64,000 nt of DNA from Natrinema amylolyticum (GTDB lineage: Archaea > Halobacteriota > Halobacteria > Halobacteriales > Natrialbaceae), in NCBI RefSeq assembly GCF_020515625.1, contig NZ_JAIWPJ010000002.1, positions 186,001-250,000 on the forward strand. Reading direction: 5' to 3'. Made by a program: the position numbers and the translations under genes. Every line of letters begins with the position of its first letter. The stretch's first letter is position 1. This document shows positions 35,300-37,542 of the stretch, piece after piece. The notes beneath the pieces are model-generated. The model did no database searches. It saw nothing but the letters and a program-made list of their open reading frames with translations, and was not told the origin of the DNA.

Positions 35300-35434
35300 T
35301 CACACTGCGTCGCAGGGACAGTCCTCCGAGACGTCCGTCCGACAGGACGGGCACCGACAGCCGTTGACGAATCCGTTGACCGAGCGCCCGCACTCCGGAC
35401 ACTGCCAGATTCCCGATTGCAATCCACCCGTCAC
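35300..35434 (-). CDS. 44-residue zinc-ribbon microprotein
   Basis: A GTG start at 35434 with GGAG five bases upstream opens a 44-residue frame starting MTGGLQSGIWQCPEC and ending ECPCDAV-like with DCPCDAV. It contains CPEC, CRCPSC and CPC, eight cysteines in all, consistent with a double zinc site. It is too short for ordinary gene finding but the cysteine spacing is convincing. Convergent with arcS. The function is unknown; RNA- or protein-binding rubredoxin-like small proteins are common in haloarchaea. Confidence 0.62.
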   Translation of the reverse strand: MTGGLQSGIWQCPECGRSVNGFVNGCRCPSCRTDVSEDCPCDAV

Positions 35435-35607: not shown

Positions 35608-35712
35608 TCACCGGCCCGGACACTCCTTGAGCAGGTGTTCGCGATAGACGGCCGCCGGAACCCGCTCCCCGCAGAGTTCACAGTCGCGGTGATCGTCGCG
35701 TTCGTCCGTCAC
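35608..35712 (-). CDS. 34-residue C2HC zinc-finger microprotein
   Basis: A GTG at 35712 opens 34 residues: an acidic start (MTDERDDHRDC), then C-x2-C, twelve residues, His, five residues, Cys (CELCGERVPAAVYREHLLKE and CPGR). This is a single CCHC finger. An in-frame GTG at 35727 could extend it by five residues. It lies 170 bases upstream of the 44-residue zinc ribbon on the same strand. I do not recognise the family. Confidence 0.5.
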   Translation of the reverse strand: MTDERDDHRDCELCGERVPAAVYREHLLKECPGR

Positions 35713-35741
35713 GGGCGGACCTGCCACCCGCACCGAAATAA

Positions 35742-36091: not shown

Positions 36092-36118
36092 TATTTTAAT
36101 AATTTAGGCATCCCTAAA
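36092..36118 (+). promoter_or_regulatory. TATA box plus metal-regulator-type palindrome
   Basis: TATTTTAATAA (36092-36102) runs into TTTAGG-CATC-CCTAAA (36103-36118), a perfect 6+6 inverted repeat with a 4-base spacer. TTAGG/CCTAA half sites are typical of DtxR/IdeR-type metal regulators. The palindrome lies between TATA and the predicted transcription start (about 36121), where a bound repressor would block RNA polymerase. The downstream gene is itself a DtxR-like regulator, so autoregulation is likely. Confidence 0.65.
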
Positions 36119-36122
36119 ACGT

Positions 36123-36254
36123 ATGGAAGACGATCCGCCGGGGGATCGCCGGTCGACGCGGCCGTCAGTCGCGTCGTCGCTCGTCTCCCGTCTCGACGCG
36201 TTTCGCGAGGACCGCCAGCGACCCGGCCGCGACCGCTGCACTCGAGACGGATGA
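36123..36254 (+). CDS. 43-codon leader ORF overlapping the DtxR-like gene
   Basis: ATG 36123 lies about 26 bases after the TATA box, where a leaderless message would start. It opens 43 codons (MEDDPPGDRRSTRPSVAS...) that end in TGA overlapping the next ATG as ATGA. The frame therefore fills almost the whole leader of the regulator mRNA. Third positions are mostly G/C, but the peptide is Arg-rich and unlike known families. It may serve as a leader peptide for translational coupling. Protein product is uncertain. Confidence 0.4.
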   Translation: MEDDPPGDRRSTRPSVASSLVSRLDAFREDRQRPGRDRCTRDG

Positions 36255-36735: not shown

Positions 36736-37281
36736 TCAGTTTGTCGCCGACTCGAGGACGAGCGTGTCGTCTTCGAGGTAGTGTTCGATGTGGTGGGCGT
36801 GCTCCTCGATGGTGGTGAGCTGCTCGCGGAGCATCTGGGCGGTCGCGTGGTCGCCGAGGTTCTCGGCGAGTTCGATGTGCTGGCGGTTGCTCTCGATGAT
36901 GTCGCCCATCATCTCGAGGTCGTTGGCGAGCGACGTCCGGATGTCGTAGACGTCCTCGTCCTCGGGCTCGACGGTGGCCTTCTCGGCCAGCGTCGTCATG
37001 TTCGCGTGCGGAACGCCGCCGAGCGCCTGGAGCCGTTCGGCGAGATCGTCGGCGGCGTCTTCGACGTCCTCGTAGACCTCCTGGAGGAAGACGTGGATGT
37101 CGAGGAACTCCGCACCTTCGACGTTCCAGTGGTGCTTGTGGAGCTGGTGGTAGAGGACGTACGAGTCCGCGAGGTCGCGGTTTAGCGCCTCGATGATCTG
37201 TTCGGCCTTCTCGGACTCGAGCCTGAGCGCGTTCTCTTCGACGGTACCGGCTTCCTGTTGGACGGTCTTCTGCGTGTTCAT
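36736..37281 (-). CDS. dpsA: DNA-protecting ferritin-like protein DpsA
   Basis: A 181-residue Dps protein. The ferroxidase region is visible: YHQLHKHHWNVEG (His45-His51), then FLDIHVFLQEVYEDVEDAAD with Asp/Glu ligands. It forms 12-subunit cages that oxidise and store iron and shield DNA from peroxide. A His-rich EEHAHHIEHYLEDD C-terminus follows. The start is ATG 37281 (MNTQKTVQQE). TTATAT at 37310-37315 is about 31 bases upstream, with a further very AT-rich block to 37340. Haloarchaeal dpsA is normally iron/peroxide-responsive; the regulator next door is a candidate. Confidence 0.93.
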   Translation of the reverse strand: MNTQKTVQQEAGTVEENALRLESEKAEQIIEALNRDLADSYVLYHQLHKHHWNVEGAEFLDIHVFLQEVYEDVEDAADDLAERLQALGGVPHANMTTLAEKATVEPEDEDVYDIRTSLANDLEMMGDIIESNRQHIELAENLGDHATAQMLREQLTTIEEHAHHIEHYLEDDTLVLESATN

Positions 37282-37309
37282 CACGGTAGAGAGATGGGGT
37301 CGCTCCCAC

Positions 37310-37340
37310 ATATAACTTTTCAATTTAATTATATTTTTTC
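37310..37340 (-). promoter_or_regulatory. AT-rich dpsA promoter region
   Basis: Thirty-one bases of nearly pure A/T in a GC-rich genome. TTATAT (37310-37315) is about 31 bases before the ATG, and a second TATA-like AAATATAATTAAA lies farther up. The remaining 37341-37542 holds no recognisable gene. Confidence 0.55.
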
Positions 37341-37542
37341 GTGCGACCTAAACCTCGGTCGCGGCCGATTCGATGACGGCGCGTCCGGTCGGCTGCGCGT
37401 CTGCAGTGATGGTTCGAGTCTACTACCGTCCGCTCGACTCACCGCGTCGGCGGTCAGAATACGTCATCGATCGAGGGGGTTCGAACGGCGAGTCCGCGTC
37501 GGGTCCGACCCGAGGGACGGGTCTGCAAAAACCCGGCCCTCG

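Follow-up and report, generated by a model that had tools for sequence, protein, structure and literature searches.

The 43-codon open reading frame (ORF) lying between a DtxR-type operator and a DtxR-family regulator gene in Natrinema amylolyticum is best read as a gutted DUF7260 gene, probably kept only to deliver ribosomes to the regulator, and the explanation as a whole (leaderless start, ribosome transit, re-initiation and a DUF7260 relic), which rests on sequence comparison, is given a probability of roughly 0.8. The same layout, in which a short starter ORF begins just behind the operator box and stops where the real gene begins, recurs at two other box-controlled iron-type genes of this genome.

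According to the proposed mechanism, RNA polymerase would begin at ATG 36123 or no more than a few bases from it (positions refer to the window, the whole 64,000-nt stretch of DNA that was analysed), a ribosome would load on the leaderless 5′ end and translate 43 unimportant codons, and after termination at UGA 36252–36254 it would re-initiate on the overlapping AUG 36251 to produce the regulator. A DUF7260 gene presumably once preceded the regulator; its body would have been lost, with the start now 5 nt behind the DtxR box, and its tail and the ATGA overlap would have been retained because the regulator lacks an independent start. Seated on the box between TATA and start codon, one of the DtxR paralogues would block transcription.

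Haloarchaeal messengers are mostly leaderless and hardly use Shine–Dalgarno motifs at their 5′ untranslated regions, so it is a real question how a gene whose leader measures 128 nt is translated. The genomes compared here partly answer it, in that a gene dependent on an upstream stop codon would keep the gutted upstream frame after the loss of the upstream gene.

Promoter, operator and start codons of the locus

Re-reading of the sequence reproduced exactly the TATA element, the box, the ATG at 36123, the 43 codons and the TGA placed over the regulator ATG in the original prediction (Table 1).

Table 1 Features of the regulator locus (positions in the window)
Feature	Position	Strand	Remarks
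Promoter: BRE-like CGCAAC and TATA-like TATTTTAATAA	36086–36102	+	Also conserved in aligned relatives
TATA-like element TATTTTAATAA	36092–36102	+	From sequence
DtxR-type operator TTTAGG-CATC-CCTAAA	36103–36118	.	Between TATA and start codon
Operator half-sites	36103–36108 (TTTAGG), 36113–36118 (CCTAAA)		CATC spacer
Operator core TTAGGNNNNCCTAA	36104–36117		28 exact copies in the genome vs 3 of the reversed control
Starter (leader) ORF, 43 codons	36123–36254	+	ATG 36123–36125, where a leaderless mRNA presumably begins
Putative relic of DUF7260 (PF23921) gene 3′ end, inside starter ORF	36177–36250	+	DNA profile and HMM
ATGA overlap	36251–36254	+	Regulator ATG 36251–36253, starter-ORF TGA 36252–36254
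DtxR-family regulator, 145 aa	36251–36688	+	Without canonical metal ligands
dpsA, convergent neighbour of regulator	36736–37323	−	NF041388, 289 bits

The ATG of the starter ORF, whose product would be 43 aa long, is located 5 nt past the operator core and about 26 nt downstream of the TATA-like element, a distance expected for a haloarchaeal leaderless start from the promoter motifs described in the available text of PMC4983044. Moreover, a long gene begins 3–9 nt behind the box at 11 box promoters of the same genome, and with the same spacing ATG 36123 is where translation of a leaderless message is expected to start. The predicted leaderless start thereby gained support from other promoters of the genome, and transcription probably begins at the start codon of the starter ORF. 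The regulator itself was found to have no alternative start, as had been claimed, since the sole upstream in-frame start codon, GTG 35963, precedes the promoter. An in-frame N-terminal extension of the regulator was considered and rejected, there being no start between the box and 36251 and stops in the regulator frame in five of 13 relatives. No Shine–Dalgarno-like motif was seen before ATG 36251 in the alignment of relatives.

The genome-wide excess of the exact operator core has no counterpart for the relaxed motif (up to two mismatches) in the window, where three matches were found against 3.74 expected from shuffles. Ten proteins encoded at or near boxes were scanned, yielding three Peripla_BP_2 binding proteins, one SBP_bac protein and one ABC ATPase, together with a class III aminotransferase, Gln-synt, Gluconate_2-dh3 and Polysacc_deac proteins and a DUF7551/DUF7552 protein, a mix that seems to lean to iron and siderophore uptake. 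Several further boxes in the genome are followed by short box-proximal ORFs leading nowhere, and the orientation of the box is ambiguous there. Additionally, tandem boxes 33–36 nt apart recur in the genome, and a degenerate box with two mismatches, TTCGTGCGACCTAA, lies upstream of dpsA at 37338–37351, at chance level within the window.

Conservation of the leader frame and drift of the peptide

Seven of the eight named loci encoding the nearest relatives belong to Natrinema species, and a close homologue of the regulator (E below 1e-40) is present in 18 of 29 genus genomes. Among the 19 loci first examined, all 14 with an exact or one-mismatch box, comprising 13 Natrinema-type loci and L040 from a sister genus, have an ATG 4–5 nt behind the box and the ATGA end, and in the other five (L016–L020) both the box and a leader of this kind are absent. 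The leader ORF expected in related genomes was thus found in 13/13 Natrinema-type loci with the box, where start, open frame and ATGA overlap are all kept; it is 42 or 43 codons long there and 50 in the sister genus. Length differences within the leader are multiples of three, and stops occur in the leader frame of 0/13 sequences, in frame +1 of 1/13 and in frame +2 of 5/13 (the L006 sequence contains an N).

These counts bear on the most serious of the rival explanations, that the leader is simply a 5′ untranslated region, its frame open by chance in GC-rich DNA, and that the regulator is initiated internally. The other two frames of the regulator leader are, as this would require, mostly open too, and in neutral substitution simulations all regulator-leader sequences stayed open in 4–9% of runs, so the open frame of this leader alone is weak, merely suggestive evidence. 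Against it stand the length differences in threes and the results obtained outside the regulator locus of Natrinema.

Matches to the regulator were obtained in 34/125 genomes by the family search and in 85/293 by the order search, and 100 loci were assembled from both, one genome being included twice; a box with at most one mismatch was located within 350 nt in 45 of them. From the latter, 19 representatives, about one per genus, were chosen with the omission of L040 (a duplicate of L044), and 17 were testable, L061 and L066 having no start 3–9 nt behind the box. In 12 of the 17, the ORF beginning at the box-proximal start codon runs over the start of the regulator (4.1 expected with shuffled leaders and random frame, P = 1.9e-5), and in 15 it ends within −30 to +12 of that start (5.6 expected on the same basis, P = 8e-7). 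With one locus per inferred origin, a set picked after the regulator tree had been seen, the corresponding values were 8/13 (P = 0.0014) and 11/13 (P = 4e-5). The excess therefore concerns the phase of the frame and holds per origin; given the correct frame, openness across genera reached only P = 0.013. The “short leader” state changes nine times on the regulator tree, which is poorly resolved in places and from which L040 was left out, and at least seven of these changes are forced by well-supported branches. Exceptions among the box loci are L078, in which the box-proximal ORF stops 103 nt upstream of the regulator, L084, in which it does likewise unless an earlier ATG is used, and L112, which lacks the layout. 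In L079 the box-proximal ATG is the start of the regulator itself, so the leader can be dispensed with.

A scan of the boxes of the genome revealed two more starter ORFs, preceding the class III aminotransferase and a FecCD permease (PF01032). In 16/16 Natrinema loci the aminotransferase gene is preceded by the box and, 7–8 nt on, by an ATG opening a frame of 20–22 codons that ends in a GTGA overlap. For the permease, 13 loci were examined. L199, which is close to a contig end and gave no box, and the distant, boxless L205 were set aside, and 11/11 loci with a visible box carry an ORF of 58–78 codons ending at +4 or +8. Counted by frame with the leader frame first, stops were present in 0, 7 and 15 of 15 aminotransferase leaders (L178 omitted) and in 0, 8 and 10 of 11 permease leaders. 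At both genes the leader frame is always open and the others are closed in the numbers just given, which, together with the phase excess across genera, makes the untranslated-region explanation improbable. The coupling by overlap that had been proposed for the regulator is strengthened by the frame kept across lineages and by these two further genes with the same layout.

The peptide itself behaves differently from the regulator. The maximum-likelihood omega for Natrinema (GY+F3X4) was 1.195 for the leader vs 0.115 for the regulator, and pN/pS in a 12-sequence set excluding L014 was 1.16 vs 0.31; the leader peptide of Natrinema thus appears to drift, as if the protein itself did not matter. 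The aminotransferase gave omega values of 1.276 for the leader and 0.098 for the gene (again without L178). In the permease leader, pN/pS was 0.66, 1.67 and 0.63 in three subgroups, so in the two subgroups in which it lies at 0.63–0.66 rather than near 1 a weak constraint on the peptide is possible. In other genera the leader peptides of the regulator are unrelated in sequence and 14–68 aa long. Computed pI values of leader peptides range from 4.7 to 12.

A functional small protein as the product of the leader is accordingly very unlikely: conserved small proteins do occupy the comparable place elsewhere, namely an RSR..WAW protein preceding the regulator (pN/pS 0.37 in codons 1–20) and a CETCPG-type protein of 53–55 aa behind the box in L097, L102, L105 and L119, but the omega of 1.2 in Natrinema, the unrelated peptides of the other genera and a search of Pfam/NCBIfam, in which the starter-ORF peptide had no match reaching cut-off, all speak against it. 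A small protein with a conserved peptide was rejected for Natrinema on the omega and pN/pS values given above.

Equally little credence is given to an attenuator, in which peptide-specific stalling or a signal-responsive RNA structure would tune the regulator, since the short hairpin at leader nt 10–25 kept in 11/11 aligned sequences is set against an Rfam search of the leader without a match, folding no better than that of shuffles (z 1.15), double changes in merely 5 of 33 predicted pairs and, in place of the conserved peptide or codon run expected of a peptide attenuator, a drifting peptide. An RNA element in the leader was rejected on the Rfam and folding results, and a DUF7260 relic with a drifting peptide likewise makes peptide-specific control unlikely. 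The hairpin, GATC(C/T)..GGGAT(C/T) at 36132–36147 of the window, is an observation in its own right, being preserved in the 11 aligned Natrinema leaders amid drifting surroundings.

Relation of the leader to DUF7260 genes

In other haloarchaea, among them L049, L050 (same family), L055, L057, L060 and L062, an intact DUF7260 gene is located upstream of the same regulator, with its TGA overlapping the regulator ATG. The tail of this gene in L057 reads ...DCQRAVRDHLVRRV, and endings such as EDRQRSGRDHPTRRA are found in the Natrinema leaders. A fixed-register DNA profile of 17 DUF7260 tails scored z 3.2–5.8 in 13/13 Natrinema leaders (4.0 for the last 56 nt of the window leader), with an identity to DUF7260 tails of at most 37/56 bases. 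The DUF7260-tail HMM gave 7.4 bits for the window leader and 17.8 bits for that of L004, which exceeds all 3764 shuffles (best 7.4); seven of the 13 Natrinema leaders scored only weakly. In three other genera of the same clade z was 1.1–2.2 (L043 unscored), so the putative relic is significant in Natrinema only and non-significant or marginal in the sister genera g4, g5 and g10. The starter ORF had no Pfam match to the full-length domain PF23921, the tail alone remaining. Intact DUF7260 tails are under constraint (pN/pS 0.37–0.51), and the change would have proceeded from gene to relic, the body being either deleted in place or relocated. A literature search on DUF7260 found no paper.

The genome still has a full DUF7260 gene at another place, in an operon with the DUF7551/DUF7552 gene (G000:C3:269609–270370 and upstream, L159) that sits behind two boxes 36 nt apart, and the DUF7260 gene of L144 is itself preceded by a starter-like ORF of 22 codons. 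In genus g33, an RSR..WAW relic candidate consists of a 15–16-nt string common to L067/L074 and L056 only and absent from L075.

Readers of the box and related systems

The N-terminal domain of the regulator was assigned to Fe_dep_repress (PF01325; 42 bits, cut-off 26, E 1.1e-10). Its C-terminal part scored 19.3 bits for PF02742, under the cut-off of 27, and is likely a derived form of that domain; the nearest solved chain is 8pvt (E 1.8e-7). At the positions of the DtxR metal ligands H79, E83, H98, C102, E105 and H106, the regulator has Y, S, a gap, M, A and G; its paralogue L003, in which all ligands are present, shows H, E, H, D, E and H. H79 is lost in 99/100 homologues and H106 in 100/100. 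The winged-helix domain and the operator type are those of DtxR/IdeR/MntR proteins, but none of the six C-terminal ligands is preserved in this protein; the “metal-bound” regulator of the original prediction is not supported, and control of this protein by bound metal is unlikely because the ligands are missing.

All 11 genus genomes without the regulator retain boxes, 11–20 each (mean 14.9 vs 20.2 in genomes with it), so another DtxR protein can read the box. Autoregulation by the window regulator is putative and unproven. With this regulator as query, the genome holds two other DtxR-like proteins, and further domain matches exist. A paralogue bearing the ligands lies at G000:C1:252175. The neighbouring dpsA is linked to the regulator in eight of the nine wider loci compared.

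Archaeal ribosome recycling requires ABCE1, an iron–sulphur protein. It is conceivable, if quite improbable, that the starter ORFs serve as a second, translational iron sensor at iron-type promoters: iron shortage would slow ABCE1-dependent recycling and lead to more re-initiation at the genes behind starter ORFs, which are the siderophore-type aminotransferase, the FecCD permease and the regulator. In yeast and mammalian data, loss of ABCE1 is linked to re-initiation (available text of PMC8153317).

Leaderless small ORFs joined by RTGA to annotated genes are already known from Mycobacterium tuberculosis and M. smegmatis (Shell et al. 2015, PMC4633059), where, in the text available, the overlap is commoner than expected and one example has an unconserved peptide with conserved leaderless start and coupling. 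The Natrinema leader resembles them in that its stop overlaps the start of the real gene and coupling is kept without conservation of the peptide. Unlike them, it is archaeal, stands behind a DtxR operator, has counterparts at iron-type genes of the same genome (three in all) and appears traceable to a lost DUF7260 gene. In the available part of the literature on archaeal leaderless leaders with re-initiation, no haloarchaeal case of the starter layout was recognised.

In Haloferax volcanii, 72% of protein-coding transcripts are leaderless, and uORFs of 15–31 aa, read as small proteins because of low pI, occur in 16 of 97 very long 5′ UTRs (PMC4983044, available text); these are likewise short ORFs within haloarchaeal leaders. 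Termination–reinitiation couples overlapping pairs in H. volcanii and Escherichia coli, 13 of 14 pairs by the available account (Huber et al. 2019, PMC6728339). The ATGA overlap is shared with the H. volcanii pairs, whose coupling is experimental, whereas ours is deduced from sequence; the upstream partners there are genes, whereas the drifting starter ORF keeps only start, frame and overlap. Synthetic leaderless bicistronic designs in Corynebacterium glutamicum also use a leaderless fore-cistron to feed the gene of interest, but are engineered and bacterial, and an SD motif is reported necessary in them (PMC10367133, available text).

The locus offers a clean natural test of termination–reinitiation, and further cases could be sought by a simple screen for an operator or TATA, an ATG, a short open frame and RTGA. 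For annotation, it is a warning that such ORFs may be real without a useful protein product.

Several small proteins were also noted. Two tiny ORFs of the window, 35300–35434 (−) and 35608–35733 (−), have CxxC pairs and a zinc-ribbon look, and no Pfam/NCBIfam family reached cut-off for either. The protein of 53–55 aa in L097, L102, L105 and L119 has the pattern VCE(T/S)(C/S)PG...FIES, starts 9 nt behind the box and had no Pfam match in the two tested. A conserved small protein with an RSR.RLWAWAY..VFG core and no Pfam match overlaps the regulator by ATGA in L073, L077, L080, L083, L086, L087, L093, L096, L098, L100 and others.
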